Assembly: GCA_023250095.1 (NCBI GenBank)
Contig: JAHFBI010000005.1
Span: 1 to 44,292, forward strand
Reading direction: 5' to 3'
DNA: 44,292 nt
Source: Candidatus Melainabacteria bacterium
Lineage (GTDB): Bacteria; Cyanobacteriota; Vampirovibrionia; Obscuribacterales; Obscuribacteraceae
The translations under genes were made by a program, and so were the position numbers. The notes under the pieces were generated by a model, which made no database searches, was not told where the DNA came from, and saw nothing but the letters and a program-made list of their open reading frames with translations. Within the stretch, counting starts at the first letter, position 1, and each line of letters opens with the position of its first letter. Positions 1,841 to 40,130 of this stretch are shown here, one piece after another.

Positions 1841-1955
1841 GCCAAAGACAACAAGCAGCAATGTTGGGGGCCGACAAAAACGAAGAACAGAAGCAAAAAC
1901 AACAGGTGTCGGACAGGAAGACGCCCGCCTGCCAAGCAATGGGAGAGCAGAAAGA

Positions 1956-8949: not shown

Positions 8950-11900
8950 TTAATAGACCGGTTCGGCAGGACGTCCAGCCAGTCCGGTATTAGGAGCAAC
9001 AACCGGCTCGACGTAAGGCCCTTTGTATCTGTCGAACATCCAGTTGATGACCGCTGCCGTTTTCATTATCTCGGAAACGGTGGCTATGTCGCCTTTGGCT
9101 GGCGAGTGGCGCAGATCCTGGAGGAGCGGGTGCTTGATCAAGGCGTCGAGGATGGAGAAGTCGTTGGTGACAACGCGCATCCTGTCGACAGCGACTACAC
9201 GATATCCCCTTCTGGAGAGACCATCGGCAAAGACCACCGGCAGAGGATCGCGTGTTGTGTCGACAACAGCAGCTTCCTTGCCCGGGAACAGTGTCAGAAC
9301 ATGCTTGCCAATGAGAATCGATATGGCATCCTTGTTGCGGTCGGAAAGATCGCGCACGCGCGTTATCTTGGATCCAACCGAAACCAGCACGATTGAGCCG
9401 ACATTAGCAATTATTCCTGCATGAGGCGTATTTATTGCCAGCTTATTTCTCACGTTGACGATCACACTTCCGAGATCAAGCGTGTAAACATTCTCGCCAG
9501 CCTGGGACAGGCGGGCGCGCCGTCCAACCGTGAAACCAGGTGGGCTGAGGCTGGGCGCGACAGTCGCCACATTGAGGAAGTGATCATCAGCATCAGCCTG
9601 CATCGTTGAACCTCTTGCCTCAAGGCTCTGGAGATTGCTGGAAACTGGGGTCCTCAAAGAAACTGGCGAGAGCGACGCGGAAAGATCAGCACCGGGAGGA
9701 GGTGCAGAGGAGACTCCATCTGGCTGTTGCCTCAGGAGGTTTCCGGCCGGTCCGAGTTTGTCGGCAGGCGAGCCCACCTGGGCTAGATCCGGTCCTCGCT
9801 GGCTGTATTTGGCTTCTAGCTGATTGCGTAGAGCGCACTGCCGGCACTGGATGAAGACCATCTTCGGAATCTCTTCCGGAAGGTTCGAAGCAGCGCGTAA
9901 GATGAACACGTTGTTATGCTTTTCCAGTCTCCCCTCAAGGCGCAGAGGAGCTGTTTTTTCGACCCTTCCTTCCAGAGGCGGCCTTTGCGCCACGGTCAGC
10001 GGATTTGTTTCGCTGATCAAGAGCTCTTCTCCAGGCGCAATAGTATATTTTTCACCTTCGACGTTGACTGTTACACCATCAGGCTCGGTAGCATCAAGAG
10101 CCACGATGCGCACGGGAGCATTTTCCGGCGACTCGATAAGAGCCACAGCATTTGCCTTGAGCGTTACCTCACCTTTCGCTGGATTGATCGTCAAGCTTTC
10201 ATCGCCGGCTTTGACAATGGCGCTGCCATTGCTCATCACCAGTTGTTTTCCTTGTGCGACCGCCAGTTCTGTTCCAGAGGTAGCCTGCAAATAGCTCTCT
10301 TTCATATCCTGAACGAACCAGGCAGTGCAAGGATTCTGAGCGACTACGGCAGGCAAGCCTGGTGCCAGAGCCTGTAGCGCTGCTGGCCCTTGTACGGCTG
10401 CGAGCACAGCTTGAGTCGGCGGTCCCGGCGGGGTCGGCGGTGGTGGCGGTGGGAAACATTCCGTGGGTGGTGGCGGCGACGGTGGTCCCGGGCATTCCGG
10501 GGCAAGCGGCGCTAAGGGCGGTGTCGGGCACAAAGGTGGTGTCGGCGGTGCTGGTGGCTCGGGCAACAAACAAATTATCGGCGGGGGCTGGCAGTCAGGC
10601 GGCAGCGGCGGGACCGGCGACTCCGGCAGCACACAACCGGGGTTCTCGGGCGGGCGGCAATCCGGACGGACCGGTGGAGGACACAAAGGCGGCGGTGGGG
10701 CCAGGAAACATCCTGCCGTGAGGCTGCTGTCTTTGATCATGATATGAAAATTGTTGGAGTCACCGCCTGAGTGCATGTAGATGATTCCATCGCTGACCTT
10801 GAAATCGCTGCTCAGGACATGGACAAGAGAGTCGCCGCCATTGAGGTCGATCATGCCGCCATCGGACACGTCGATCATCGAGGGATCTCCGCCTCCTCCA
10901 TGCTGAGAAATAGGGTCGTTGGCGGCATTGGTCTGCGAGCTGAATTGATTCGGCGTGGGATCTATATGGGTGTTATTGCTGCTGCTGCCCTCGAGAATGA
11001 AAACATTCAAGGACGGGTCCGGAGCCGGCAGCGGCGAGGGAGTATTCATGTGCGTGACAATATAGATGCCTCCGCCCGGTCCCGCGCAAGTGCCGTTCGG
11101 GAGCTGATATTTAGTGGCGATGAGCACATTGTCGAACTTCATATCCACCGAGATGAAAGCGTTCATGACGATGTTGCCGCCGAAGGCTGAAAGCACATTT
11201 GTCGGTTGCTCGTCTGGAAGCGACTCATTGCCAATGCCGCCGCTTGTGCCGTCCAGTTCTATGTGACGCGCGCTTGTGATGAATATGTTCCCGCCGTACA
11301 CTCCGGCAAAGTTACCGTCGAATCCGGGCAGGAAAGCCGAGCTATAGGCTGTAAGCACATTTCCTGTATCGATGAAAACATCCTGATTATCCTTTGTGCC
11401 AGTGGACGTCAGGGACAGATCGCCGCCCACGACGGTAATGATGTCATCGACAAAATGGATGCTCCTGGCGGTAAATGCCAGATTGCTTCCCTGGACTGTG
11501 AGAGTCTTGCCTGTAAGGTCCAGATCGCCTTGTAGGGTGATGGAAATAGTTGAAGGTCCTCCTCTGGGCTGAAAGGTGCAAAGCTTGTTGTCTTGTCCGA
11601 TGTCGATCGTGTCGCTGTTGATGATTATATGTCCGCCGACAGCATTGAGGTCATTGGAAGTACCCAGATTGATATTTCCATCTGCCGCGGTAAGCAGGAT
11701 GCTGCCGCCAATCAAAGGATTACTCAAGGAAAAGAACGCATTGAGCGTATTGTCAGAGCCGAGATCTATATCGCCGCCATGGCTGGTCAGGGTCAGATCA
11801 CCGCCTCCAGCTGCCAAGGTATCGAACCTTCCCAGATAGATGCTTCCCGCTGGTCCGCCGGACCGTCCGGCTATAAGACTTACCGCTCCTTGATTGCTTT

Positions 11901-14900
11901 CGAGGACGTCATCGAGCCCGAGTGAAATATTCCGGCAGGCAACAAGCGAGATATTGCCCGTGTCGGCGCAAAGGTGATTGTTTCCCAGATCCTCGTTCTC
12001 ACCTATATAGCCGAACTTTATGTCATGTGCACTTGCAAGAGATATGGAGCCGTTTGCGAAAACCACATTGTTTTCTACAAGATAGATGTCTGCGGTATCA
12101 CCGGATGTGATACCGACGTTACCACCTGAGGCTGTGATGCTGTTGCTCGTCAAAATTACGCCGTGGGCACTTAGAAGCGACACATCGCCGGCAGCGACCA
12201 TATTCTGCCCGGTCAGGCTCAAGTCAGTATTTACGATAATCGAGATATCACCTAGACCTTCATCGCCAGGCTTAAATGTACAGAGATGATTGCCCGGCGC
12301 TGAAATTACGGTACCGAAAAGGCTTTGCAGAAGGATTGAGCCGCCGACGGCGTTGAGATCGTTGCCAGCGCCAAGGGTGATATTCTGCCGGGCGACAAAT
12401 GTGATATTGCCGCCCACGGAAGAGCCGTCGGCAAAAGTGTTGAAAGCGTTGAACGTATCATCTGCGCCGCTTGTGATGAAGCCGTGGGCGGCAAGAGACA
12501 AATCCCCGCCGACGGCATTGAAGAGATTATCTTGTCCTAGGCTGATATCGCTGTGATCTGACACCAGGCTGATATTGCCGCCAACGGCGCTCCTGCCTAT
12601 TACAACACTATAAGCATTGACAGCGTCAGTACGCCCCGATGTTATGGGTCCGCCTGCTAACACGTCGACACTACCGCTCACTGCAGAAAGAATGTCATAT
12701 GAGCCCAGAGAAATGCTGCCATCCGCGGCTCTCAGCTCGATATCACCGGCACCGCTTGTACCTTGCCTGAAGGCGTTTAATATATTGTGTGATCCCAGAT
12801 TGATATTTCCGCCAAAACTTATGAGGCGCAGATCGCCTTCACCAGCGGACAGTGTATCCTCGCTGCCAAGGATGATGTTTCCGCTGGATTTACACTTCTG
12901 CCCGGCTATAAGAATCACAGACCCATGGTTGGATTCCAGGCGATCGCCAAGTCCAAGCTCGATATTCTCACAAGCTATCAGACGGACATTGCCTCTGTCT
13001 GCGCAAAGGTGATTATTGCCGGATGCCAACTCGTAGGTCTCTCCTAGCTTGATGTTTCCACCGGCGGTCAAAGTTATCGAATCACCCGCAAAGAGTGTGT
13101 TGTCCGCTAGAAGGCGGATGCTGTAGTGAGATCCGCTTCCAATTTCAATATTGTCGCCTGCGGCAATGGTATCGGAGCTGAGCCTCACGCCCCTGTCGCT
13201 TGTGAGCAACACATTGCCGGCCGCTGCGAGATTCTGTCCGGTCAAAATAATGTCCTCAGTGGAATTGATTACGATATCACCGCTGGCGACATCATCGCCT
13301 TCAGCAGGTTTGCCTGCGAAAGTGCAGAAGGAGTTGCCCTCCTGCGATTCGACCGTGCCGTTCAAGGCAGTCAGCGTGATGTTCCCGCCCACTGCATTGA
13401 AATCATTCCCCGAAGAAAGAAGTATGTCCTGAAAAGCAGTGAAGGCAATATTGCCGCCGACTGAGCTGCCGCCCACAACGGCATTGAAGGCATTGAAAGT
13501 GTCGTCGACACCTGTTGTGATGCTCCCGAGCGCGGCGTCAACTTCCACATTGCCGCCGACGGCGTTGAAAGTATTCGAAGCGCCCACGTTTACGTTGCCG
13601 CTTCCTGTTGCTTTCAAAGTGATATTGCCACCGACTGCGCTTCCAAGCGAGACAGCGCCGAAAGCATTCAAGTCAGCACCCTCTCCGGTTGACAGGTCGC
13701 TAGAAGACGAAATGGCAAGATCACCGCCCACTGCATCAAGAGTGTTGCCTGCACCCAGAGAAACGCCGCTGGAGTCCGAATCGATAGTGATATTGCCCCC
13801 GGAGGACGTGCCGTTTGTTACGACATTGAAAGCTGCAAGCGAGCTTCCTTCTCCGGTTTGGATATTTCCCGGTCCACTGATAAGAGCAATGTCGCCTCCG
13901 TGCGCATCGAGAGAATTATTGTCGCCCAGAGCTATCCCGCCGGCAGGGGCGCTGATTGTCACATTCCCCCCGGCTGCCTCAGTCGTTTTCTCCGACTCGA
14001 TAATGATTCCACAAGACTTGAGGCTGTCGCCAGCGCCTGTGGTTACATTGCTTGCTGACGATGAAATCGTCAGGTCCCCCCCGACTGCAGCTAGTTTGTT
14101 GTCATCGCCCAGAGCCACTTCGCCGCCGGCGCACAAGTTGACGGCACCGCCGGTTGAGATGTTGCCGGAAATAGAGTTGAAAGCGTTGAGCTCTACTGCG
14201 CTCCCTGTGGAAATACCTCCGCTTTTGGCTGTCAACTTAAGATCTCCGCCTGCGGCATTGAATGAATTATCCGCCGAAAGAGAAATGTCTCCGGCGGTGG
14301 ATGCAAGACTTATGTCGCCGCCGACGGAACCACCATTGACCTGGTTGGCGAAGGCGTTGACTGTCGATGAAGAGCCGGTCGTCAGATTCCCGCCGGCGGA
14401 GATCTGAACATTTCCTCCGACGGCATTGATAGCATTGTCATTTCCCAGAGAGACCCCGCCGTGCGGGCTAACCAAAGTCACGGAACCTCCGTCCGACTCG
14501 TGATTGGCAGTGAGCCTGAAAGCATTGAGGGAAACATTGTCGCCGGTGACGATATTGCCGCCGCCAGCTACTGCGCTGGAAACAAAGATGTTACCGCCAA
14601 CGGCATCTAACGCCGTGGCACTTGCCAGAGTGACATCACCGTTAAGGGCGAAGAGTGATATATTGCCGCCGATGATGGGATCTTCCCCCTGGTCTGCCTG
14701 CTCAAAGACCCCGCAAGCATGAAGTTTGTCCTCCTCGCCGGTGAAGACATTTCCACACAGACTCGAAATATTGATATCGCCGCCGTTGGCGGTCAAAGAA
14801 TTACCGCCTGCAGAAACAATGTCTTTGCCGGCGATGAGACTGATACTTCCGCCTGATGGAAATCCGTCAACATCCGCGCGCCAGGCTCCGTAGGATCCAT

Positions 14901-16746
14901 CTAAGCCAAGAGATATTCTGTTCCCGGCAAAGAGGAAAAGGTTGCCGCCCACCGAATTGAGCGTGTCCTGGGAAAGAAGGATACTACCGGACAGGGCGCC
15001 CAGCGATATCGAGCCGTTGAACGTTGCGATGGATTTGCCAGGCGCCATGATGATGTCGCCACTTGTGCTGAAAGCGTTTAGACCGCCCACCAGATTGGAC
15101 ACATTATTGAAGTTTATGTCGCCGCCGGAGAATAAATTGATTGAGGGTGCCCGCTCTTGCATCAGACCGCTGTCGCAGATGTGCAGGTCGCCGATGGTTA
15201 TGGAACTCCTCGATTCTTCGCCTGATAGGGCAATTAGATTGATTGAATTGTTATTGGTCGTCAAAGCAACAGTTGGCAAAACAATACTTCCGCCAAGCCC
15301 GCTTGCACCAGTTATGGTGAAATTAGGGTCGCAAAGCGAGCAGGCAACAGGGCTGGCACCACCGCTTGTGGTAAAGGAGACGCCGGCGGCAAGAGTGATC
15401 TTGCCCCCTGCCCCCAGCGGATTTGTAGCATCGATTAAGGCATCGGCAGGCGCCCCGGGAGCGATGATACTGCCGCCGGAGAGGGCGACGAAATCCTGTC
15501 CTGCCGTGAAGAATGTCGAGCCGCTGCTAAACAGTCCGCTAAGATCAAGATTACCGAGAACATTATAGAAAAGGGGATCTTCGCTCAATTGCATACTGGC
15601 AAGGCGCAGATCTCCTTGATTTACACCAACGGCAGCCGTGCCCGCAGTAAGCGTCACACCCCCGGTTATTCTATCTGAGTAAAGTGAGACGGTGCCTTGC
15701 GGGCTTTTAAGAACAAGTTGCGGGGCGTCAAATACGCCACCTGACACCGTGAGCAAAGCCCTGGACACCAGATTGCCGCCTGCGTCGAGAGTCGATCCTA
15801 GTGTTTCCAGAAGAATCGTGTCGTGTGCCGAGATCAAGCCCAGAGAATTATTGATAACAAGAGTATTGCCGGATACGTTGCTTATATTCACGTTTGCCCC
15901 AAGAGACTGCATGACTGATGAATTCACAAGACTTGCCGTGTAAGCGTTTAGGCTGCCAAGTTGAGCCTGCATCAGTCCGGAATTTACTATTCCGGCAGCT
16001 TGAAGATTGAGGGAATTCATGGCCATAATGACCGGGGTGGGACCTGTTATCCCGGCAGGCAAAGTGTTTCCAATTGTGCCTCCGGCTGTCAACGACAGTG
16101 CTCCGGAGCTGGAGATTACACCGGCATTCATAATGTCTTGAAGCGCGTTCAGATTGAAATTGAGACTGGAAGTAGCGCTAACTATTCCACCGATGCCGCT
16201 CGTTGGGAAGATGGATGACAGGACGGCGCCGGGCTGATTATAGATATTGACGGCGTTGATACTGGCGGAAAGCGTGGCGGCACTTGATGTGTAAGCATAG
16301 AAAGTGCCGTAATTGGTCAGATTTCCCAGCAGATTCAAAGACGCAAGAGTCGTCGCATTATAAAGAGCCGTCACCCCATTCGGTATCACTGCATTTGTGA
16401 TCGTCATATTCAGGGCATCGCGAGAGATATCGAATGTCCCGCCTACAGCCGCGCCACCTGTACCAAGGATCAAAGACTGTACGCCGCCGGACAGCACCTG
16501 GTGGACCGCAATATGCTCAGCCGGGGTCAGGGGGTCTGAGGCTGTGACCGTTCTGGTCGTTCCGCCTTCCTGAATAACAACTGAAGTAAATCCATCGTGG
16601 TGGGCGGCGGTTGTGCAGGCTTGTGTGGCAGTCAAGTCGGCGTCCGAATCACAATGCGCCAGAGCGCCAGGGGCTGTAAACAGCACCAGTTGAACAGCAA
16701 GAAACCCTCGAGCAATTGCCCTTACGGCGCTTTTAAAATATCTCAT
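8950..16746 (-). CDS. Giant secreted repetitive (filamentous-haemagglutinin-like, beta-helix) surface protein with Cys/Pro-rich linker and FecR-like C-terminal domains
   Basis: ORF of 2625 codons on the minus strand; signal-peptide-like MRYFKSAVRAIARGFLAVQLVLFTAPGALA from ATG at 16746 (track start 16827); dozens of LGxxNxLNAVGGxIxLxS...TGxxxxLNAF repeats; Pro-rich linker; C-terminal FecR-like segments. Confidence 0.85.
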   Translation of the reverse strand: MRYFKSAVRAIARGFLAVQLVLFTAPGALAHCDSDADLTATQACTTAAHHDGFTSVVIQEGGTTRTVTASDPLTPAEHIAVHQVLSGGVQSLILGTGGAAVGGTFDISRDALNMTITNAVIPNGVTALYNATTLASLNLLGNLTNYGTFYAYTSSAATLSASINAVNIYNQPGAVLSSIFPTSGIGGIVSATSSLNFNLNALQDIMNAGVISSSGALSLTAGGTIGNTLPAGITGPTPVIMAMNSLNLQAAGIVNSGLMQAQLGSLNAYTASLVNSSVMQSLGANVNISNVSGNTLVINNSLGLISAHDTILLETLGSTLDAGGNLVSRALLTVSGGVFDAPQLVLKSPQGTVSLYSDRITGGVTLTAGTAAVGVNQGDLRLASMQLSEDPLFYNVLGNLDLSGLFSSGSTFFTAGQDFVALSGGSIIAPGAPADALIDATNPLGAGGKITLAAGVSFTTSGGASPVACSLCDPNFTITGASGLGGSIVLPTVALTTNNNSINLIALSGEESRSSITIGDLHICDSGLMQERAPSINLFSGGDINFNNVSNLVGGLNAFSTSGDIIMAPGKSIATFNGSISLGALSGSILLSQDTLNSVGGNLFLFAGNRISLGLDGSYGAWRADVDGFPSGGSISLIAGKDIVSAGGNSLTANGGDINISSLCGNVFTGEEDKLHACGVFEQADQGEDPIIGGNISLFALNGDVTLASATALDAVGGNIFVSSAVAGGGNIVTGDNVSLNAFRLTANHESDGGSVTLVSPHGGVSLGNDNAINAVGGNVQISAGGNLTTGSSSTVNAFANQVNGGSVGGDISLASTAGDISLSADNSFNAAGGDLKLTAKSGGISTGSAVELNAFNSISGNISTGGAVNLCAGGEVALGDDNKLAAVGGDLTISSSASNVTTGAGDSLKSCGIIIESEKTTEAAGGNVTISAPAGGIALGDNNSLDAHGGDIALISGPGNIQTGEGSSLAAFNVVTNGTSSGGNITIDSDSSGVSLGAGNTLDAVGGDLAISSSSDLSTGEGADLNAFGAVSLGSAVGGNITLKATGSGNVNVGASNTFNAVGGNVEVDAALGSITTGVDDTFNAFNAVVGGSSVGGNIAFTAFQDILLSSGNDFNAVGGNITLTALNGTVESQEGNSFCTFAGKPAEGDDVASGDIVINSTEDIILTGQNLAAAGNVLLTSDRGVRLSSDTIAAGDNIEIGSGSHYSIRLLADNTLFAGDSITLTAGGNIKLGETYELASGNNHLCADRGNVRLIACENIELGLGDRLESNHGSVILIAGQKCKSSGNIILGSEDTLSAGEGDLRLISFGGNINLGSHNILNAFRQGTSGAGDIELRAADGSISLGSYDILSAVSGSVDVLAGGPITSGRTDAVNAYSVVIGRSAVGGNISLVSDHSDISLGQDNLFNAVGGDLSLAAHGFITSGADDTFNAFNTFADGSSVGGNITFVARQNITLGAGNDLNAVGGSILLQSLFGTVISAPGNHLCTFKPGDEGLGDISIIVNTDLSLTGQNMVAAGDVSLLSAHGVILTSNSITASGGNVGITSGDTADIYLVENNVVFANGSISLASAHDIKFGYIGENEDLGNNHLCADTGNISLVACRNISLGLDDVLESNQGAVSLIAGRSGGPAGSIYLGRFDTLAAGGGDLTLTSHGGDIDLGSDNTLNAFFSLSNPLIGGSILLTAADGNINLGTSNDLNAVGGHIIINSDTIDIGQDNKLCTFQPRGGPSTISITLQGDLDLTGKTLTVQGSNLAFTARSIHFVDDIITVVGGDLSLTSTGTKDNQDVFIDTGNVLTAYSSAFLPGFDGNFAGVYGGNIFITSARHIELDGTSGGIGNESLPDEQPTNVLSAFGGNIVMNAFISVDMKFDNVLIATKYQLPNGTCAGPGGGIYIVTHMNTPSPLPAPDPSLNVFILEGSSSNNTHIDPTPNQFSSQTNAANDPISQHGGGGDPSMIDVSDGGMIDLNGGDSLVHVLSSDFKVSDGIIYMHSGGDSNNFHIMIKDSSLTAGCFLAPPPPLCPPPVRPDCRPPENPGCVLPESPVPPLPPDCQPPPIICLLPEPPAPPTPPLCPTPPLAPLAPECPGPPSPPPPTECFPPPPPPTPPGPPTQAVLAAVQGPAALQALAPGLPAVVAQNPCTAWFVQDMKESYLQATSGTELAVAQGKQLVMSNGSAIVKAGDESLTINPAKGEVTLKANAVALIESPENAPVRIVALDATEPDGVTVNVEGEKYTIAPGEELLISETNPLTVAQRPPLEGRVEKTAPLRLEGRLEKHNNVFILRAASNLPEEIPKMVFIQCRQCALRNQLEAKYSQRGPDLAQVGSPADKLGPAGNLLRQQPDGVSSAPPPGADLSASLSPVSLRTPVSSNLQSLEARGSTMQADADDHFLNVATVAPSLSPPGFTVGRRARLSQAGENVYTLDLGSVIVNVRNKLAINTPHAGIIANVGSIVLVSVGSKITRVRDLSDRNKDAISILIGKHVLTLFPGKEAAVVDTTRDPLPVVFADGLSRRGYRVVAVDRMRVVTNDFSILDALIKHPLLQDLRHSPAKGDIATVSEIMKTAAVINWMFDRYKGPYVEPVVAPNTGLAGRPAEPVY

Positions 16747-17633
16747 TGCACTAACCCCTGCATGTCCTGTGCCTGAATATTTGCACCGGGGACAGTGCCT
16801 GCAAGCGGCACGCTCACCCAGCTTCAATTAATATGGATACGCCAGTTCAACCTGTCGAATCTGGTCTTACAAACGTCGCGGCAATCTGTAACATTTCTGT
16901 TGCCCAGGTCGCGGCCTTCAAAGAAATATTTAGTCTGGTCTTGAATCCTGAGGCGGCGCGCCCCCCGCGCATCCCTTGCCTCAACGTTGCCTTTCTTATT
17001 GGACGGAAATAAATTGCGATTTCTGTCTCAACATTGCCTTATAGCGGCATGTGACTCTACTATATTAGGAGCATGTGAAAACAGCGTGAACAGTGGCATC
17101 TTGCGAGCCAATGGAAAGTTCCCCGCACTTGCGCCAGAGTTGACTTTGTCGTAAGAGCCCAGATAACACAGCCTGCACCAATAAAATAGCTCGACTTACG
17201 TTTCGTAACGATGAATGCGGCTGAGTTGGTTTGCAGCAAGGGAAGGCTGCAGTTTGAGACATCGAGGCAAGCACCGCTGACGATATCAGCTAGCCAGTCA
17301 ATGAGCTGGCTCAAGAAAACAATTTACTCTGGCGGCTTCAGCGAGATTCAATAGAAGTGCCAGCAGAAGCTGGCCGAACTGCAAAGGTAGTGCGATGCAG
17401 ATGCTGTGCAGACATTTTTAGTTGCAGGGCCGCCCTCTCATCGCCAGTTATCGCGTTAAGCTCCCTTAGCTAGGTTGAGAAAATCTGGGTCGAGTCGAAC
17501 AATAACTTTACACAGACAGGCGCCAGAATCAGTTTTCACCAGACTTTCACGGTCCTCATGGCATGCTCGCAGGTATGATGCACCAATTTGGGAGTTGTGT
17601 GTTTTGTTGAGGGAGCAAGAGGAAACGAAATAT

Positions 17634-18145: not shown

Positions 18146-20116
18146 CTATTTGCCCGGAGCCCTAAGCAGAACTCGCCCGGATGTAAGACGGCGCGTGATT
18201 TTTTGATCGTCAAAATATTGCAGCAGGGCCATGGCATATTTGCGAGTAGTAGAGAGTGTCTCGCGGAAGTCCGACGGAGCTATATTTCGCTTTGTATTCC
18301 AGATATCGGATAGAACCTGATGCGCCCGGAGAAGGTTGGCCGGGCTGATAACAAACTCGTAATTGACAATGTGTGCCCGTCCCGTTTTCTCGAGAGCTTG
18401 CGCGCCGGCCTTGACTGTTGCGCTTCCGGCACCGCAAAGTTCAGCCAGGTCGTCAAAATCCAGACAAAGATTCTTTTCCAGCGCTTCAGCCATCCTGTCC
18501 TGCAAAGCCACAAAGGCCGGATCAGCCTGCCGCTCAAGGGGGGCATGGGCGGAAAACAGCCTGTCGCCCTTTCTTACAATCCGTGCGTGCTGTGTCTCTT
18601 CTTCCAGTAAAATCTGAAAAGTCTGGCGATCGAGTTTGGGCATGAGATGAAGTCTCAGGCTCTCCAGAGGAAGCCCTTCTTCCTCCAGCCCCTCGTGTTG
18701 CTGGTTGGACTTTGTGGCGTGCTCGATCTGCTTGGCGACTCGCTCGGTCAGCTCTTTGCGCATTTCTTGAGACATGATTTGCTCACCGAGCCGCACAAGT
18801 CGCCCTTCCTCGATGAGCCTTTGCATTGCCTCAGACGCTGCTGTTTCGGGCACGAATGAGCGTACGAGGGTTTCTTTGACAAGACCTTGTGGGCAGGACT
18901 TCAAGAAAGAAAGAATGGCATCCTCATATTTATGGTCGAGAAGATGTCCGGCGAGCTCAACAAGCCCGGAGCGCTTGATCCAGCGCGGGCGCTCGCAAGA
19001 GAGGATCTCTCCGCCATAGATGGTCTCATCGCTGAGGCGCACGACGAACCGATCAGCCGCGGAGGGCACCACTTGATCTGACAGAGCGATAAAAGCGATT
19101 GTTTCAAGCGTGCTGTCGGCAGCTTTCTGCCTGGCAGGAAGTTCTTCAACCCAGCGAATAGAGCCGTGGCACTCCGCTGTTCCATGATAGAGACGGACAG
19201 GCTGCCCGCTCAAGCGTTCAGCGAACTTGGAGCCGCTGGATACCCCTTTCTCCACAAGGCTGACAAGTAAATTCTTGCAAGGCGTGATCGGCTCGCCAAG
19301 AACGACATGTCCTCTGGCGAGGGTGACGTTATCCTTGAGCACGAGATTTACTGCTACGCGCTGTCCAGCAACAGCGGTGTTTACCGTCGCCCCGAAAGTC
19401 TCCAGCCTGCGTATTCTCCCGGAAGTCACGGAAGGACCGATGCTCACCTGATCCCCGATATTCAGGAGCCCCTTCACAAGGGTGCCTGTGATGACTGTTC
19501 CGAAGCCGGACTTGCTGAACACCCGGTCGATTGGCAGAAACGCGCCGCCCCGTATGGCGCGCGCCGGCTCCTTCTCCAGATGTTTGACAAAGGAAAGCTT
19601 CAGCTGGTCTATCCCGGTCTTCCTGGTGGAAGAAAGAAAACAAATTTCAAGCGGCTCGACATCCCACTTCAGTAAAAGCTCTTCGATTTCCTGGCGGACG
19701 ATATCGAGCTGCTCTGCGTCGTCGACAAGATCCACCTTTGTGACGGCGACAATAGCCTTCCGCACGCCAAGATAGCTCAGAATTCTCACGTGTTGCTTTG
19801 TTTGCGGCATGGGACCTTCGTCGGCTGCCACCACAAGGAGCGCCATATCGATGCCGCCCACGCCGGCCAGCATGTTCTTCAGAAATTTGCCGTGTCCGGG
19901 AACATCTACGAAACCAACAACCATTTGCTCCGACAGGCGCAAATGAGCAAAGCCCAGGTCCGTCGTCATCTGTCGTTCCTTCTCTTCTTTCAAACGATCA
20001 GGATCGATGCCCGTGAGCGCCCGGATCAAACTGGTCTTGCCATGATCCACGTGACCGGCGGTGGAGATTGTAAAGTGGCGGGTGGTTTGCTGAAATTGTG
20101 AATCAGTTGCACTCAT
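18146..20116 (-). CDS. selB: Selenocysteine-specific translation elongation factor SelB
   Basis: GTPase motifs [35 protein letters not shown]; SelB-like domain order with C-terminal winged-helix segments ([28 protein letters not shown]). Confidence 0.93.
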
Positions 20117-31008: not shown

Positions 31009-31081
<73 letters not shown>

Positions 31082-31441: not shown

Positions 31442-31638
31442 GGCTGTGCCACCAGGTAGATGAGCTCCTATCCTAACCCAAAATTTCCCTCTCAACTGCC
31501 GACTGAGAAAATGCCAAGGAGAGCCGGGCGCATCTTTGCCAAGCAGGGCAAGTCAATGAAAATAAGCGACTATAATTCATGTTTACCAAGGCACACCAAG
31601 CTAAACAAGTGATCATTACTTCTGGGAGGAGTCAAGTC

Positions 31639-32259
31639 ATGAGACACAAGCTCCATACTCTGGCAATTGTCGGACTGATGGTTTTCAGCCCGTCAGGGGC
31701 CCTCGGGCAGAACGATAAACTGGCCAGGGCTTTTGCCCAGAGTTACAGCCTGGAGGCTAGAAAGGACTACAGCAACGCGATCGCGTTGCTGACAGCTGCA
31801 AATGCCCATCCGACCTATGAGTCAAACCTGAGGCTGGGCTGGTTGTGTTACCTGGGGCAGCGTTACCCGGAGTCGCTAACTTATTATCAAAAGGCCATAG
31901 AACTGATGCCCAGGTCCATCGAACCCAGACTTGGCTATGTCTTGCCGGCTTCTGCTCTCAACAGATGGACCGATGTCACGGTGCAGTACAACAAAATTCT
32001 GGAGATTGACCCGCGCAACTCGCTGGTGAATTATCGCATGGGACTCATATCCTACAACAAGAAGGACTACAGCAATGCCCACCAGTACCTGGAGAAGGTG
32101 ATCAATCTCTACCCTTTCGATTACGACAGCCTCCTGCTGTTTGCCTGGTGCAATTACCACATGGGCAAATCGCGTGAAGCACAGATACTTTTCAACAAAG
32201 TGCTGTTGCGCTCACCTAACGACAGATCGGCGCTGCAGGGGCTCAGCCTGCTCAAGTGA
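31639..32259 (+). CDS. Exported TPR protein (copy 1)
   Basis: Signal peptide MRHKLHTLAIVGLMVFSPSGALGQ; TPR-like repeats; strong RBS ctgggaggagtcaagtcATG. Confidence 0.85.
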   Translation: MRHKLHTLAIVGLMVFSPSGALGQNDKLARAFAQSYSLEARKDYSNAIALLTAANAHPTYESNLRLGWLCYLGQRYPESLTYYQKAIELMPRSIEPRLGYVLPASALNRWTDVTVQYNKILEIDPRNSLVNYRMGLISYNKKDYSNAHQYLEKVINLYPFDYDSLLLFAWCNYHMGKSREAQILFNKVLLRSPNDRSALQGLSLLK

Positions 32260-32292: not shown

Positions 32293-32366
32293 TGCCAGAT
32301 CGAGATTAGCCCAGGCAATTGAACGGACAACAATCCCTCAACGGTCCCCGCGGAGCTCTTCCAGAA

Positions 32367-32990
32367 ATGCATAAGACTAGCAGCATTATCGTAATCGGTC
32401 TCCTCCTGTGCACCTTGAGTGTGTCCGGTGTACTGGCGCAGGGCGATGAGCTCAAGGAAGCGTTTGCCCAAAGCTATGCCCTGGAGGCGCAAAAGGATTA
32501 CGTCAAGGCGACCAGAGTGCTCAAACAAGTCTTTGACCAGCAGTCCTACGAGCTCAACTTGAGACTTGGCTGGTTGAATTATCTGTCCGGGCAATACTCA
32601 GAATCATTGAAATACTACCAAACAGCTGCCGCGCTCATGCCCTGTTCGGTTGAGGCAAAGCTGGGCTGCGTTCTGCCTGCCTCAGCCCTGGGTAACTGGT
32701 CAGATGTAATTGACTATTACTACAAAGTCTTGGAGATTGACCCGCACAACTGCCAGGCCAATTACTACATGGGGTTAATCGGATACAACAATCGCGACTA
32801 TGAAAGAGCTTACAAGTATCTGAAGCGGGTTGTGGATCTCTACCCGTTCGACCATGACGGAGTCATACTGTTTGCCTGGTGTAACTATCAGCTGGCAAAG
32901 AAGGACCAGGCAAGAGTCCTTTTCACAAGAGCACTCCTGGCTGTGCCCGATGACAGATCCGCTCTAGAAGGATTGAAACTCCTGAATTAA
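32367..32990 (+). CDS. Exported TPR protein (copy 2, paralogue of copy 1)
   Basis: Signal peptide MHKTSSIIVIGLLLCTLSVSGVLAQ; co-linear similarity with copy 1 (AFAQSYxLEAxKDY..., LRLGWLxYLxxxYxESLxYYQ, LYPFDxDxxxLFAWCNY, DDRSALxGLxLL). Confidence 0.85.
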   Translation: MHKTSSIIVIGLLLCTLSVSGVLAQGDELKEAFAQSYALEAQKDYVKATRVLKQVFDQQSYELNLRLGWLNYLSGQYSESLKYYQTAAALMPCSVEAKLGCVLPASALGNWSDVIDYYYKVLEIDPHNCQANYYMGLIGYNNRDYERAYKYLKRVVDLYPFDHDGVILFAWCNYQLAKKDQARVLFTRALLAVPDDRSALEGLKLLN

Positions 32991-33079: not shown

Positions 33080-33340
33080 ATGAAGATTAAACGCAATATC
33101 GCTGTCAGCGACTCCGGATTTGTATTCAACCCAACAACCGGCGAGTCTTTCTCAACCAACCCCATTGGACTTGAGATCATCATGGCTCTTAAGAGTCACC
33201 AGGGTCCAGCCCAGATACAGGCGTCCATACTGGACAGGTACACGACCGACCAGGTGACTGTAGAGAAAGATCTTTCCGATTTCTTTGACATGCTGGCGCG
33301 TCTGGACCTCCTGGAGCAGGATGAAAAGAACCAGGATTAA
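33080..33340 (+). CDS. PqqD-like / RiPP-recognition-element-like small protein
   Basis: SDSGFVFNPTTGESFSTNPIGLEIIMALKSHQGPAQIQASILDRYTTDQVTVEKDLSDFFDMLARLDLLE matches the PqqD family pattern. Confidence 0.75.
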   Translation: MKIKRNIAVSDSGFVFNPTTGESFSTNPIGLEIIMALKSHQGPAQIQASILDRYTTDQVTVEKDLSDFFDMLARLDLLEQDEKNQD

Positions 33341-34370
33341 TGTGGCTGTAACCGGGCTCAACGCCATTGACAGTCCCGGTCCTGGCGTTCCGGTAATTCG
33401 TGCTCTCAAAGAGAGCGCGAGCTTTGACACACGGATTATCGGTCTTTCTTATGACACGCTGGAGCCGGGCATTTACATGCACGAGCTGGTCGACAAGGTT
33501 TATCAGCTGCCTCTACCATCGGCAGGCAGAGCAGTGCTCGAGTCTCGCTTGCGTTACATACATGCCAAGGAAAACATCGATGTCCTTATTCCAACACTTG
33601 ACGCCGAGCTCTTTAACTTCATTCATCTGTCAGGGAGCCTCAAGGAAGAGCTTGGCATAAACGCCTGCCTACCCAGCCCTCAACAGCTCGAGGACAGAGA
33701 CAAGGTAAATCTGGCAGCATTCGGCAGGAAGCATAATGTAAAAGTGCCTGAGAGCAAAGCTATTTTCAAGGTTTCGGATATCTCCGGGCTATCGAGCGAG
33801 TTTCCTTATCCATTCATGGTGAAAGGCAAGCTCTATGAAGCGTACGTCGCTTACAATCCCGAACATGCTGCAGTGTATTTCAACAAGGTAAGCGCAAAAT
33901 GGGGCTTGCCAGTCATCATTCAAAAAATCGTCCACGGCTCGGAGGTGAACGTGTGCGCCATCGGCGATGGCAAAGGTAATACTATTGGCGCCGTGCCCAT
34001 GAGCAAGCAGTACGTCACCGACAAAGGCAAAGCCTGGGCCGGTATCTCCCTGGATGATCCACACCTGCTCGACATGGCAGACAGGATTATCAAAGGCACC
34101 AGGTGGCCCGGCGGACTGGAGCTTGAAATAATCAAGACTGCTGACAATGATTACTATTTGATCGAGATAAATCCACGCTTTCCGGCCTGGGTGTATCTGA
34201 CCGTCGCCTGCGGGCAGAACCAGCCGGAAGCGCTGGTCAAACTTGCGCTGGGAAAGTCGGTGAAGCCGTTTCGAAAATACGACGTTGGCAAGCTGTTTAT
34301 CCGTTATTCATACGATCTGATCGTCGACCTGAAAGAGTTTGAAATAATATCAACCATGGGCGAACTATAG
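33321..34370 (+). CDS. ATP-grasp superfamily ligase
   Basis: RINVAVTGLNAIDSPGPGVPVIRALKES (N-domain), YPFMVKGKLYEAYVAY, VIIQKIVHGSEVNVCAIGD, GGLELEIIKTADNDYYLIEINPRFPAW (E...EINPR Mg-binding motif). Starts inside the 3' end of the PqqD-like gene. Confidence 0.85.
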   Translation: MKRTRINVAVTGLNAIDSPGPGVPVIRALKESASFDTRIIGLSYDTLEPGIYMHELVDKVYQLPLPSAGRAVLESRLRYIHAKENIDVLIPTLDAELFNFIHLSGSLKEELGINACLPSPQQLEDRDKVNLAAFGRKHNVKVPESKAIFKVSDISGLSSEFPYPFMVKGKLYEAYVAYNPEHAAVYFNKVSAKWGLPVIIQKIVHGSEVNVCAIGDGKGNTIGAVPMSKQYVTDKGKAWAGISLDDPHLLDMADRIIKGTRWPGGLELEIIKTADNDYYLIEINPRFPAWVYLTVACGQNQPEALVKLALGKSVKPFRKYDVGKLFIRYSYDLIVDLKEFEIISTMGEL

Positions 34371-34404
34371 ACCACGTCACTCCAGGGGAATACAGCAGTA
34401 CATC

Positions 34405-35763
34405 ATGAAAAAATGCCAGTACGAACGTCCGCTAATTCAGAGGCTGAACGTCGGTCTCATGAACAAGTTTGGAACTCGCACGGAGTACGTGCCGTTTACA
34501 CATATTGACGGGAACTCGATCAAGGCTCTTCTTGCTGCTTATGGATCGCCCCTTTTTGTCATCTCGGAGGCGACGATCCGGCAAACACTCCGGGATGCTC
34601 AGCGTGCTTTTCGTACTCGTTATCCCAAGGTTCAGTTCGCCTGGTCATACAAGACCAACTATCTCAATGCCGTCTGCTGCGTGTTTCACCAGGAAGGCTC
34701 CTGGGCAGAGGTCGTCTCTGGCTTCGAGTACCAGAAAGCCCTGAAAAACGGGGTTCCTGGCAACAAGATCATCTTCAATGGTCCGGATAAGACCGTCGGC
34801 GAGCTGGAGCTGGCAATAAAGAACTCCTCCCTTATCCACATAGACCACCTGGATGAACTGTACATGCTCAAAGAACTGTGCATGAAACTGGAATTGAAAG
34901 CCAGGGTCGCCGTTCGCGTCAACATGGACACGGGAGTCTATCCCATCTGGGACCGGTTTGGGTTCAACTATGAGAACGGACAGGCATGGGATGCCATCAA
35001 TAAGATCATGCTCAGCGACATGATGGACCTCTGCGGGCTCCACTGCCACATCGGGACATTTATGCTCACCCCCAGCGCTTATGCTGTTGCAGCATACAAA
35101 ATGGCCGATCTCGCGCTCGGCGTTCGGCAGAAATTCAACAGGAGCATCCAGTACATAGATATGGGCGGCGGCTTTGCCTCGAAGAATACGCTCAAAGGCT
35201 CTTACTTGCCCGGTGTCGATGTCTCTCCCTCCTTTGACCAGTATGCCGAGGCCATCACAACTGCGATCCTGAACGCCGGCTTCGGAGAAAGCGAGCTTCC
35301 GATGATCGTTCTGGAGACTGGCCGAGCTCTTGTTGATGAAGCCGGGTTCCTCCTGGGCACGGTGATTGCCAACAAGCGCCTCGGGGACGGCCGGCGCGCC
35401 ACCGTGCTTGATTTCGGGGTGAACGTGCTCTTCACCTCCTTCTGGTACGACCACAAGATAAGCCCGGCACAAGATTTCAGCCGCTACACCGAAGACACTG
35501 TCATCTTCGGACCTCTGTGCATGAACATCGACGTTGTTCGCGAAAACGTGCCCCTGCCACCACTCAATCGGGGCGATCATGTCGTGGTACATACAGTGGG
35601 TGCTTACAACCTGACTCAATGGATGCAGTTCATCTCCTTGCGCCCGGCAGTGGTCATGATTGACATGAACGATCAGCTGCACATTATCCGGGAACGAGAA
35701 ACCATGTCCAGCGTCGAGAAGGATGAACGCCTGCCGGATTATCTGACGGGCTTCAAGCTTTGA
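34405..35763 (+). CDS. Fold-type III PLP-dependent decarboxylase (diaminopimelate/ornithine decarboxylase-like)
   Basis: FAWSYKTN (PLP Lys), GLHCHIGTF, IDMGGGFASK, VLETGRALVDEAGFLLGTV, FGPLCMNIDVV, HTVGAYN. Confidence 0.88.
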   Translation: MKKCQYERPLIQRLNVGLMNKFGTRTEYVPFTHIDGNSIKALLAAYGSPLFVISEATIRQTLRDAQRAFRTRYPKVQFAWSYKTNYLNAVCCVFHQEGSWAEVVSGFEYQKALKNGVPGNKIIFNGPDKTVGELELAIKNSSLIHIDHLDELYMLKELCMKLELKARVAVRVNMDTGVYPIWDRFGFNYENGQAWDAINKIMLSDMMDLCGLHCHIGTFMLTPSAYAVAAYKMADLALGVRQKFNRSIQYIDMGGGFASKNTLKGSYLPGVDVSPSFDQYAEAITTAILNAGFGESELPMIVLETGRALVDEAGFLLGTVIANKRLGDGRRATVLDFGVNVLFTSFWYDHKISPAQDFSRYTEDTVIFGPLCMNIDVVRENVPLPPLNRGDHVVVHTVGAYNLTQWMQFISLRPAVVMIDMNDQLHIIRERETMSSVEKDERLPDYLTGFKL

Positions 35764-37982
35764 CGGAAGGACAAGAGGTGATTGCCGAGAAGCTGAAATT
35801 CTACCGCGATGGCCTGGCTGGCAGCTATGCTCAGGTCTTCTTTTCCAATGATCGCAGGTTTGCCTTCTTGCTCATACTCTCCTCGTTTGTCGATCCCTGT
35901 ACGGGATTCAGCGGCTTGCTGTCGGCACTCCTTGCTCTTATGGTGGCACGCTGGTTCGGGTTCAGTCCGGCACTGATACGCGACGGCACATACAGTTACA
36001 ACAGCCTGCTCGTCGGGCTGGCAATCGGGCTTTATTTCAAGATGAACGGGCCCTTCTTCTTGATTCTGGTTCTTGGCTCTACGCTGACGCTGTTCCTTTC
36101 CGTGTTCATGGTCGCGCAACTGGAGAAATGCCGCTTGCCCATCTTGAGCCTGCCATTTCTTATGGGGACATGGGCTGTCTTGCTCAGCACGCGCAGTTAT
36201 GGCTCGATGGGTTTGAGCGAGCGCGGCGTATACGCCATAAACGAACTCTGGCGTTTTGGGGGTGAAGGGCTGGTAGCTTTTTACGACAAGCTCTCCCACT
36301 GGACTATTCTGCCGGCAGTGGCAATCTACTTGAAGTCACTGGGAGCAATACTGTTTCAGTATAACGAGGTTTCCGGTCTGCTTATAGCGGCCGGACTGCT
36401 CCTATACTCGCGCATCGCGTTCTCGCTGGCGCTCGTGGGCTTTCTCACTGGGCTCCTTTTCTATTATCTTGTGGCTGGCAACTTCACAGAGCTCCAGTAC
36501 AGCTATATCGGCTTCAATTTCATACTGTCGGCCATTGCGCTGGGCGGTTTTTTTGTCATCCCGTCGCGCAGATCGTACTTGCTGGTTATCCTGACCACTC
36601 CGTTGATTGGTCTCATCATGAGCGCCTCCGGACGCCTGTTGTGGACCTACCAGTTGCCCCTGTATTCACTGCCGTTCAACCTCATTGTCCTGCTCACTCT
36701 CTATGTGCTTTCTCAGCGCAGCAAAACCAGCAAGACGCTCCAGCCCGAGCTCGTGGAGGTGCAACAGTTTTCTCCGGAGAAGAATTTCTACCGGCACCAC
36801 AACCAGAAACAGAGGCTGAGCAATGACAGCTACTTTCACATTCATCTTCCCTTCTTTGGTGCGTGGTATGTGAGCCAGGGGCACGATGGAAATGTAACCC
36901 ACTGCGATGACTGGCGCTTTGCCTGGGATTTTGTCGTAACAGACGAGATGCGAAAGACAGCTCGTCCGCCCGGTACGAGCCCGTCCCATTTCTTTTCGTA
37001 CAACTTGCCGATTCTTGCGCCAGCGGCTGGTCAGGTAATCGAGATCATTGACGACGTCCCGGATAACGACATTGGCATGGTGTCACTGGCAGAGAACTGG
37101 GGCAACACAATTGTCATCAAGCACCTCGATCATCTATACAGCAAGTTAAGCCATATCCGCAAGGGCAGTTTCCAGGTGAAGCCCGGCGATTATGTCCGGA
37201 AAGGAGACTTTATTGCCAGCTGCGGCAACTCAGGACGCTCCACCGAACCGCACATTCATTTTCAGCTGCAGGCGACCCCTTTTGTTGGATCAAGAACTCT
37301 GCAGTACCCAATTTCATACTACCTGGCAGCCGAAAAGCAGTCTTGCCGCTTGCGCGCCTTTTCTTATCCGCGCCAGGGGGAGACAATTTCAAGATTAGCT
37401 GTGACACCATTGCTCCGGCAAGCATTGTGTTTCATTCCAGGGTCCACCCTCCACTTCGAGGTGACCACCACAAATGGTGGCAGCCAGAGAGTCTTGTGGG
37501 AAGTGCTTGTCGACGCCTTTAATCAATCATATCTCTTTTGTCACAACACGGGCTCCGTGGCTTATTTCCGCAACAACGAGACGCTGCATTACTTCACAGA
37601 TTTCTTTGGCGATTACAACTCCTTGCTCTATTACTTCTATCTGGGTGCCCATTCGGTGCTGCTCGGCTATTATCAGGATCTCGAGTTGACTGACCATCTT
37701 CCCCTGGACAATTTCTATCCTGGTTCTCTCAAGCTTTTGCAGGATTTTCTCTGCCCCTTCCATGTCTTCCTGGAAACATCGTTTCGGGCAGTGTTTACCC
37801 AGATCGATGATCCGGACAATCCCCGATCGATTACTGTGGCCAGTGAGTCCAGGGCGTTGGTCGCCAATTCGATCAAAGGCAGTATGGACTTCTTGCTTGT
37901 TTTCACAGACAACAGGATTCATGAGTTCACGGTTACGGAAAAAGGCAGGACAATCATGGCCAGGCGTGTCGAGCCCAGTTGA
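35760..37982 (+). CDS. Urea-transporter-like membrane domain fused to M23 (LytM-type) metallopeptidase domain
   Basis: N-term ~330 aa UT-like (SSFVDPCTGFSGLLSALLALMVARWFGFSPALIRDGTYSYNSLLVGLAIGLYF); central M23-like DDWRFAWDFVV ... LAPAAGQVIEIIDDVPDN ... NTIVIKHLDHLYSKLSHI ... VKPGDYVRKGDFIASCGNSGRSTEPHIHFQL. TTG start overlaps the previous stop (TTGA). Confidence 0.8.
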   Translation: MTEGQEVIAEKLKFYRDGLAGSYAQVFFSNDRRFAFLLILSSFVDPCTGFSGLLSALLALMVARWFGFSPALIRDGTYSYNSLLVGLAIGLYFKMNGPFFLILVLGSTLTLFLSVFMVAQLEKCRLPILSLPFLMGTWAVLLSTRSYGSMGLSERGVYAINELWRFGGEGLVAFYDKLSHWTILPAVAIYLKSLGAILFQYNEVSGLLIAAGLLLYSRIAFSLALVGFLTGLLFYYLVAGNFTELQYSYIGFNFILSAIALGGFFVIPSRRSYLLVILTTPLIGLIMSASGRLLWTYQLPLYSLPFNLIVLLTLYVLSQRSKTSKTLQPELVEVQQFSPEKNFYRHHNQKQRLSNDSYFHIHLPFFGAWYVSQGHDGNVTHCDDWRFAWDFVVTDEMRKTARPPGTSPSHFFSYNLPILAPAAGQVIEIIDDVPDNDIGMVSLAENWGNTIVIKHLDHLYSKLSHIRKGSFQVKPGDYVRKGDFIASCGNSGRSTEPHIHFQLQATPFVGSRTLQYPISYYLAAEKQSCRLRAFSYPRQGETISRLAVTPLLRQALCFIPGSTLHFEVTTTNGGSQRVLWEVLVDAFNQSYLFCHNTGSVAYFRNNETLHYFTDFFGDYNSLLYYFYLGAHSVLLGYYQDLELTDHLPLDNFYPGSLKLLQDFLCPFHVFLETSFRAVFTQIDDPDNPRSITVASESRALVANSIKGSMDFLLVFTDNRIHEFTVTEKGRTIMARRVEPS

Positions 37983-38015: not shown

Positions 38016-38669
38016 TTATTCGACCGGGATGTAAATATCGACCTCGCTTTCAGGAGATTCAGACTTGAAGCGCTGGTCGTACAACTCGAAGCTGGGAGCA
38101 TTTCTGTATTTTTCTCTGGTCCGCTTGAGCCAGCTTCCCCAGATGTAATCCATGCTTGAGGAGAGATTCGCAAGCGGCCCCTTGTGCGTAAATACGGCGT
38201 AGCGGCCAGCAGGAAGTTCGACTTTTACCATAGCGTCGGGTAAAGCCTCTGCGCGCGTGACCGGCACCGCAGCAACATATACATAGGCATCGCCCGGGCG
38301 GCGGGAAATTTCCGATAGTCCAGCACAGGATATTCCAAGCGTGTGAGTCCCCTTGGCACTGGGGACTTCCTGAATACGTGGCTTAAACCGTTCCCAGAGA
38401 TGGACAATTTCTTTAGAGCCTTCAAGCGAATAGCTAGCCCCCATGCCAACGGCCAGCTCGGCCTCGCGCTGGACAATCTTCGGCTCCAGGCTGGTCAATG
38501 AAAGCGGTGTCTTTACACCGGCTGTTGTCCCCGTTGCCTTTGGAATGACAGCAAAACTGTCACTCCAGTCTGCTCGACTCGGAGCTAGAGAAAAAATGAC
38601 CAGCGCAATGGCTGCGCTGGTTCCATAGCCAAGTAGCTTATCCAGCATGGCTCCCCCTGCAAATGGCAT
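38016..38669 (-). CDS. Exported GyrI/Cass2-like effector-binding domain protein
   Basis: N-terminal signal/TM (MLDKLLGYGTSAAIALVIFSLAPSRA); C-term PAGRYAVFTHKGPLANLSSSMDYIWGSWL...FELYDQRF...SEVDIYIPVE. Confidence 0.8.
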   Translation of the reverse strand: MPFAGGAMLDKLLGYGTSAAIALVIFSLAPSRADWSDSFAVIPKATGTTAGVKTPLSLTSLEPKIVQREAELAVGMGASYSLEGSKEIVHLWERFKPRIQEVPSAKGTHTLGISCAGLSEISRRPGDAYVYVAAVPVTRAEALPDAMVKVELPAGRYAVFTHKGPLANLSSSMDYIWGSWLKRTREKYRNAPSFELYDQRFKSESPESEVDIYIPVE

Positions 38670-39239: not shown

Positions 39240-40130
39240 GTGATAAATCTAAAAGGGTATCTCCTGGCAGCGTCTTTCATAGGAGTCTTCGCCAGCGCAA
39301 TCGCTGCTTTGCCAGCACGGACGGGCTTTGACAAGGCCGTCCAGGATTACAACACGCACAATTATTCCCGGGCACTTTCGGCCTTTCAGAAGATCCTTGG
39401 TGTGAACCCGCAGGACGCCGAGACGCACTACTATATTGCCCTTTGTTACCAGGCTCTTTCCCAGATTGCTGCCGCTGAGAGCGAGTATAAGTGGGTCTCC
39501 AGTAACTCGCAGAACCAGAGCCTTCGAAACAATGCCAACCAGGCGCTGCAAAATATTCAGGCCTGGACTGCTCATCGCACCAGCTCCGGGCGCGGCAATA
39601 ACTTCCAGAGCTCTTCCACACGCCCCTCCGGCAACCCACCCCTGCTCAGCCTTCAGCCCAAGATCGTTACACGGGCTTCCGAACAGGCGCTTGGGATCGG
39701 GAGCAGTTATGCGCCCAACAGCTCCAAGGAAATTGCTGGTCTATGGGAGCGCTTCACGCCCCGCATTCCGGAGCTGCCCAGTGTGGAGGGAACTTATTCT
39801 CTCGGCATTTCAAGTACAACAGCATGTGCTGGTATTAAATTGCCCCCTGGCAAAGCCTTTGTATATGTTGCCGCGATGCCGGTCAAAGACACAGAGCAGA
39901 TCCCGGAAGGAATGGTGAAGATACGGCTCAACGCCGGGCGTTATGCGGTCTTCACGCACAGGGGCCCGACGTCCGACTTGCAGCGCAGTCTCGACTATAT
40001 CTGGAAAACCTGGCTTCCGAAAGCCAACGTGAAATACCGCGATGCTCCATCTTTTGAGTTGTACGATCGGCAGCGCTTCAATGCGGATTCGGCCGAATCC
40101 GAGATAGACCTCTACATTCCAATCCAGTAG
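39240..40130 (+). CDS. Exported TPR + GyrI/Cass2-like effector-binding domain protein (paralogue of the 38016-38669 gene)
   Basis: GTG start, signal-like LLAASFIGVFASAIAALPA, TPR-like region (AVQDYNTHNYSRALSAFQKILGVNPQDAETHYYIALCYQ), then NAGRYAVFTHRGPTSDLQRSLDYIWKTWLPKANVKYRDAPSFELYDRQRF...SEIDLYIPIQ. Confidence 0.82.
   Translation: MINLKGYLLAASFIGVFASAIAALPARTGFDKAVQDYNTHNYSRALSAFQKILGVNPQDAETHYYIALCYQALSQIAAAESEYKWVSSNSQNQSLRNNANQALQNIQAWTAHRTSSGRGNNFQSSSTRPSGNPPLLSLQPKIVTRASEQALGIGSSYAPNSSKEIAGLWERFTPRIPELPSVEGTYSLGISSTTACAGIKLPPGKAFVYVAAMPVKDTEQIPEGMVKIRLNAGRYAVFTHRGPTSDLQRSLDYIWKTWLPKANVKYRDAPSFELYDRQRFNADSAESEIDLYIPIQ

Follow-up and report, generated by a model that had tools for sequence, protein, structure and literature searches.

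A PqqD-like protein that probably docks the N-terminal tail of a decarboxylase in a conserved operon carried into Melainabacteria by apparent horizontal transfer

RiPP recognition elements (RREs), so called after ribosomally synthesized and post-translationally modified peptides (RiPPs), are taken as markers of ribosomal-peptide pathways. Many RREs have no known precursor and stand as unassigned nodes (PMC12710340). What might such an element recognize in an operon in which no precursor peptide is found? The question is raised by a four-gene block of Candidatus Melainabacteria bacterium (assembly GCA_023250095.1, contig JAHFBI010000005.1), in which genes for a PqqD-like discrete RRE, an ATP-grasp ligase, a fold-III pyridoxal phosphate (PLP) decarboxylase and a fusion of a urea transporter (UT) with an M23 peptidase domain follow one another. 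The DNA analysed, hereafter the window, comprises 44,292 nucleotides (positions 1 to 44,292 of the contig, forward strand). Our analysis suggests that the PqqD-like protein probably docks an N-terminal tail of the decarboxylase and in this way links two enzymes of a conserved, transferred operon; the binding is read from sequence comparison.

The first-pass annotation, a reading of the letters of the window, had described four tightly packed genes on the same strand, and their open reading frames (ORFs), overlaps, spacings and family matches were all confirmed (Table 1). The ATG of the ATP-grasp gene (33321) falls within pqqD, the decarboxylase begins 34 nt past the ligase gene, and TTGA is common to the decarboxylase stop and the TTG start of the UT-M23 gene (35760). 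In Pfam, the PqqD family is matched at 4e-8 (PF05402, 33.8 bits against a cut-off of 23.4), the ligase matches ATPgrasp_Ter at 6e-9, the decarboxylase matches Orn_Arg_deC_N at 3e-29 and the corresponding C domain at 7e-13, and the fusion matches UT at 2e-53 and Peptidase_M23 at 1e-15. Overlooked by the annotation were two TPR genes upstream of the block, a TPR/beta-barrel gene that belongs to the operon and is missing here, and the conserved decarboxylase tail.

The block had also been proposed as a candidate undescribed pathway, to be judged by its co-conservation outside close relatives. Public genomes were scanned with the ATP-grasp protein as single query, and more distant phyla may hold further loci. 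The scan returned 60 loci, all from Bacteroidota bar one Ignavibacterium. The order pqqD, ATP-grasp, decarboxylase, UT-M23 on one strand is found in all 53 uncut loci, the remaining seven being interrupted by contig ends. A search of 99 genomes with the UT-M23 protein gave matches that span both domains, with identities near 30%, in 17 of the 49 genomes that belong to the window's own family. Every one of these matches adjoins a decarboxylase gene, and order and strand are again kept in 16/16 uncut loci (the 17th is interrupted by a contig end). Two further genomes of the wider phylum carry the four-gene block. Given the same order and strand in all uncut loci of both sets, the arrangement is far beyond chance, and the block is indeed conserved and widespread. 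Sampled by species, the ligase occurs in 27/297 Bacteroidota (about 9%), in 75/396 Bacteroidia (about 19%) and in 17 of 149 species of the family to which an Algoriphagus genome belongs. The open-access papers searched contain no description of the cluster, in agreement with the annotation's view that the pathway has not been characterized.

The Bacteroidota operon usually continues beyond the four genes, with a protein that joins an N-terminal TPR region to a likely beta-barrel (48 loci) and with a roughly 205-residue TPR protein (46 loci). The barrel assignment follows from the appearance of the sequence, with no strong family match, and in four divergent Bacteroidota loci a shorter barrel-like protein without TPR takes the place of the TPR/beta-barrel protein. 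In the window's genome no TPR/beta-barrel gene was recognized, the matches there being short TPR matches only. The small TPR gene lies at the operon end in Bacteroidota versus two copies upstream of the block in the window; the copies are 54% identical to each other and are matched by a profile at 1.5e-88 (copy 1) and 5.2e-87 (copy 2). As separate observations, multicopper-oxidase-like and redoxin-like genes lie in or beside the block at locus L049 (6243-8576), and genes for cytochrome b561, a YedY-like protein and a redoxin-like protein do so 3' of UT-M23 at locus L113.

The candidate ligand of the PqqD-like protein is found on the decarboxylase itself. Residues 1-23 of this enzyme precede the catalytic fold and close in an 18-residue module, [YFW]ExPx[ILV]x5GxxNK[FY][GA], with single-position deviations in a few members. 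P9 and K21 are the only residues invariant in all tails, present without any length change in 182/182 readable loci, although the tail-reading pattern itself demanded the Pro, a hydrophobic residue and the Lys; the other 5 of 187 loci gave no tail match, mostly with little sequence past the ligase gene. An unfiltered alignment of 76 decarboxylases has both Pro and Lys in all 75 members with the region present. Between the RRE motif and NKFG the distance is constant, and the linker after NKFG is variable. As a measure of background, the bare hexamer occurs within the first 60 residues of 29 of the 965 other ORFs in the loci. When a tail profile was run against 33 whole genomes, the operon decarboxylase was matched in all 33 (one genome has two copies), and nothing else, protein or peptide, scored above chance.

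Discrete RREs of lasso-peptide pathways bind the motif [Y/W]xxPx[L/V/I/F/A] (PMC13381572), and both TbiB1 and TfuB1, the nearest solved relatives of the PqqD-like protein, are lasso RREs. Since the decarboxylase tail contains the same motif that these relatives bind, the PqqD-like protein would be expected to dock it. In LppB, D70 bonds the motif Tyr and N33 fixes the Pro, and the N33A substitution nearly abolishes the complex (PMC13381572). Alignment to LppB and PbaB1 places window residues N27, D64 and F68 at LppB positions N33, D70 and F74, and these binding residues are kept (N27 in 183/183, D64 in 144/183 and F68 in 169/183). The two partners also co-vary. Tyr at tail residue 6 is paired with Asp at PqqD residue 64 in 138 loci, with His in two and with Asn in one, whereas Phe is never paired with Asp (0/20) and Trp once (1/17), so that 36 loci combine Phe or Trp with a non-Asp residue. 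Normalized mutual information with tail residue 6 is 0.60 for PqqD column 64 and 0.12 for the next column. This co-variation supports a contact between tail and groove and does not prove it, the tree-aware test being under-powered and the independent pairs too few for significance. Discrete RREs of lasso-peptide and LPP pathways (TbiB1, TfuB1/FusB1, LppB, PbaB1) thus resemble the operon protein in PqqD fold, in the N33/D70/F74 positions, in the ligand motif [Y/W]xxPx[L/I] and in its Tyr/Trp alternation. They differ in that their ligand is a precursor peptide, here apparently replaced by the N-terminus of a metabolic enzyme, and in that the lasso cyclase and leader peptidase of their pathways were not found in the block.

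The annotation had suggested that the PqqD-like protein acts as a carrier or as a recognition scaffold. The second role fits, with the decarboxylase tail as likely ligand. The first is disfavoured in the form of a carrier of C-terminal cargo: the C-terminus is not conserved, which argues against a LysW-type carrier, and no carrier site was found. One PqqD of this family was present per genome in all five genomes searched.

The two enzymes that would be linked are both recognizable by fold and active-site residues. The ATP-grasp model (predicted local distance difference test, pLDDT, 89) has 2pn1, RizA and PylC among its nearest folds, and E267, E269, E282, N284, P285 and R286 are invariant, with the Mg-binding ExN-type motif present. 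The nearest solved relative of the decarboxylase is FslC, the N-citrylornithine decarboxylase of rhizoferrin synthesis, followed by diaminopimelate decarboxylase (DapDC). It keeps K83, H215, GGG, E304, C372 and Y401, which we take to be the PLP lysine and catalytic-type residues. FslC and LysA (diaminopimelate decarboxylase) are likewise fold-III PLP enzymes, and FslC shares the GP-C-M--D motif; the operon decarboxylase, however, scores below both family cut-offs (231.6 against 500 bits for FslC, 212.2 against 297.9 bits for LysA), has the leader-like tail and has no NRPS-independent siderophore (NIS) synthetase nearby. A further relative is BtrK. In butirosin synthesis, BtrI, BtrJ and BtrK comprise an ATP-grasp ligase, a fold-III decarboxylase and a small partner protein that work together, a set like that of the operon, except that the PqqD-like protein is not an acyl carrier. 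A 758-aa protein on a Streptomyces zaomyceticus plasmid joins a related ATP-grasp domain (30%) and a related decarboxylase (23%) in one chain and lacks this tail; docking of the tail on PqqD would, by analogy, achieve non-covalently what this fusion does covalently. A search for a phage link of the fusion gave no match. In its neighbourhood, on the 3' side (L120, 14271-14858), a 195-residue protein shows a transglutaminase-like GDCG...H...WDPT pattern and no Pfam match.

The fourth gene had been annotated as a urea transporter fused to an M23 hydrolase, and both families are confirmed. The model (pLDDT 86) combines the dvUT fold (TM-score, TMt, 0.84 to 3k3f), a LytM-type domain and a C-terminal beta domain. 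The UT part passes the Pfam UT cut-off and lies under that of TIGR03441 (111.6 against 274.6 bits). At the dvUT positions Q24, E187, T130 and T294, presumably the urea filter, Gln is kept, Glu is replaced by Ala and both Thr by Ser; because the pore has lost part of its filter, "urea transporter" is not to be taken literally. In the M23 domain, the metal-site-type residues H381, D390, H465 and H498 are invariant and H500 is present in 65/66 members; H381 may be a metal ligand, its spacing to D390 exceeding the HxxxD of LytM. The charge distribution (positive-inside) places both channel ends inside and favours a cytosolic C-terminus. Among the best plasmid relatives of the M23 domain are membrane-anchored proteins from haloarchaea, organisms devoid of murein; near plasmid relatives also occur in Thermus. 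As this charge pattern and these relatives indicate, a cytosolic, non-murein role is more likely for the M23 domain than that of a murein hydrolase. The fusion thus shares the UT fold, the LytM fold and metal-site-type residues with urea transporters (dvUT, UT-B) and M23 metallopeptidases, and differs from them in joining both in one chain, in the altered filter and in the probable cytosolic position of M23. Independently of the operon, plasmids of haloarchaea, Thermus and Thermomicrobium (L121, L122, L123, L125) encode M23 proteins of a membrane-anchored subfamily (SHSW...QRYAYDF), for which murein cannot be the substrate in haloarchaea.

In the mechanism that we propose, the PqqD-like RRE would grip the 18-residue tail in the groove that lasso-peptide RREs use for precursor leaders, and docking would hold the decarboxylase beside the ATP-grasp ligase, whose gene overlaps pqqD. 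Both enzymes would act as one unit. We infer that the ligase would act on an amino acid to form an amide, from which the decarboxylase would then remove the alpha-carboxylate. Trimming of the product, or its passage to the periplasm, would fall to the UT-like channel and its M23 domain, which probably faces the cytosol; at the outer membrane the product would be handled by the TPR/beta-barrel proteins. The part folds and the recognition of the motif are already known; what is new is the likely use of an RRE-recognized motif on the N-terminus of an enzyme, here in a large family. If this is true, some orphan RREs serve small-molecule synthesis as docking adaptors, and genome mining limited to small precursor ORFs will misread them. 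The operon offers a widespread, transferable target with single-residue predictions, namely Y6, P9 and K21 in the decarboxylase and N27 and D64 in PqqD.

Several observations weigh against this mechanism. K21 is invariant and lies beyond the region contacted by an RRE, and plain docking leaves it unexplained. The co-variation amounts to about 4-6 changes on the tree, with 2-3 concordant, 0 discordant and 2-3 uninformative independent pairs; three Tyr tails pair with His or Asn and one Trp tail with Asp. RREs in general commonly have N27 and D64, which by themselves prove only an intact groove. In G360, a divergent genome, a distance of about 1.9 kb and another gene separate pqqD from the ligase gene. 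The Streptomyces fusion is a single case, on one plasmid, at 30%/23% identity. The roles given to UT and M23 come from positive-inside charge and homology.

Two other explanations keep to a RiPP-type logic. In an ordinary RiPP cluster the precursor would be unlinked and the resemblance of the tail incidental; PqqD is an RRE by sequence, and RiPP clusters often contain ATP-grasp and peptidase genes. The annotation had seen no obvious precursor peptide, and a systematic search by small-ORF clustering likewise gave no conserved small ORF near the operons, the clusters that appeared proving to be antisense shadows of coding genes, anti-sigma-like genes or missed pqqD copies. With, in addition, no second carrier of the tail motif in 33 genomes and a tail of invariant length that co-varies with the RRE pocket, we regard this explanation as very improbable. 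Alternatively, the tail is itself a substrate or carrier: PqqD would present it, the ligase would load an amino acid on Lys21 or otherwise modify NKFG, the decarboxylase would act on the tethered group, and M23 would cut near Gly to release the product. Borosin enzymes carry their own precursor/peptide substrate and are alike in having a peptide-like segment covalently on the enzyme, although here the segment is N-terminal and appears to pair with a separate RRE. A carrier role would suit the invariance of P9 and K21, the fixed spacing to NKFG ahead of a varying linker, the RiPP-type set of RRE, ligase and peptidase, the lack of any other precursor, and Lys21 itself, which occupies the place that the processing site would have in a precursor. 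Set against these are the Streptomyces ligase-decarboxylase fusion, which manages without this tail, and an NKFG "core" that barely varies, so that only a cofactor-type product would fit. We judge this explanation unlikely. Its fullest form is likewise unlikely: the decarboxylase would carry its own RiPP-like precursor, presented by the RRE, built upon by the ligase at Lys21, decarboxylated in cis and freed by M23 for export, making the operon a small-molecule assembly line tethered to one of its own enzymes.

The remaining explanations concern the product. A metallophore-like or metal-stress compound, compatible with docking, would be an acylated diamine or amino-acid amide built by the ligase and the FslC-like decarboxylase and leaving via the UT-like channel and barrel. 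The kinship to FslC and the metal theme of upstream regulators hint at a metal-binding or metal-stress product: Metal_resist/LTXXQ-type proteins with an extracytoplasmic function (ECF) sigma factor lie upstream in 15 loci, one wider-phylum genome has a Metal_resist match, and AraC regulators with an HMA-like N-terminus lie upstream of pqqD in 10 loci (L048, L051, L052, L057, L059, L066, L083, L087, L088 and L101). However, the block has no recognized NIS synthetase or TonB receptor, the regulators vary from lineage to lineage, the neighbour counts come without a background rate, and the similarity to FslC is under the family cut-off. We judge such a product rather unlikely. A polyamide or other envelope polymer is improbable. 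Here the ligase would grow a chain, M23 would trim it, and TPR and beta-barrel would form an outer-membrane path of the PgaA or AlgK/AlgE kind. Models of VexE, PgaA or PrsT match some of the barrel proteins and the ATP-grasp profile matches cyanophycin synthase, but all these matches are weak and TPR-driven, the urea-channel fold is narrow and no polymerase-type synthase is present. Among the AraC proteins, the HMA-like stretch has MxCxxC in some and is degenerate in others; the one protein scanned gave no match to Pfam HMA.

The window copy appears to have reached this genome by horizontal transfer from Bacteroidota, since the tree of decarboxylase and ATP-grasp nests it in that phylum (72% to the nearest row) and the flanking aminotransferase shares 61-78% identity with own-family genomes. 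Forced grouping with the own-family copies was rejected (approximately unbiased, AU, test, p = 8e-11), and the lineage also keeps an older, diverged version. Contamination was considered as the source of the Bacteroidota-like genes, and transfer is preferred to it in view of the own-family aminotransferase and of guanine-cytosine content, which is even along the contig. The tRNA-Phe(GAA) gene is a possible integration point.

Table 1. Positions, in window coordinates, of the four-gene block, its key residues and flanking features.
Feature	Position	Strand	Details
tRNA-Phe(GAA)	31009-31081	+	just 5' of transferred block
Small TPR protein, copy 1	31579-32259	+	TPR by Pfam; aligns with Bacteroidota operon TPR protein
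Small TPR protein, copy 2	32319-32990	+	36-54% to TPR protein ending Bacteroidota operon
PqqD-like discrete RRE	33080-33340	+	86 aa; PF05402
PqqD-like N27 codon	33158-33160	+	mapped peptide-binding residue
PqqD-like D64 codon	33269-33271	+	mapped peptide-binding residue
ATP-grasp ligase	33321-34370	+	349 aa; PF15632, invariant residues, model and fold matches
Fold-III PLP decarboxylase	34405-35763	+	452 aa; PF02784, PF00278
Decarboxylase N-terminal leader-like tail	34405-34473	+	residues 1-23
Tail Y6 codon	34420-34422	+	
Tail P9 codon	34429-34431	+	
Tail K21 codon	34465-34467	+	
UT-M23 fusion	35760-37982	+	740 aa, TTG start; UT match residues 22-316, M23 match residues 415-504, C-terminal beta domain

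Other scans gave no riboswitch that passes the Rfam gathering thresholds, either in the window or in three loci, no PADLOC match to an anti-phage system, and promoter and terminator signals not clearly over shuffles. Elsewhere in the window, adjoining genes at 38016-38669 (-) and 39240-40130 (+) encode GyrI-like/Cass2 effector-binding proteins, the second with a TPR-like N-terminus. A giant ORF of 2625 residues (8950-16827, -) has a short DUF2345 match as its only one. A SelB-like elongation factor (18146-20116, -) suggests selenocysteine use in this genome, and a DegT/DnrJ aminotransferase adjoins a hexapeptide acyltransferase at 587-2753 (+), a pair typical of amino-sugar synthesis.

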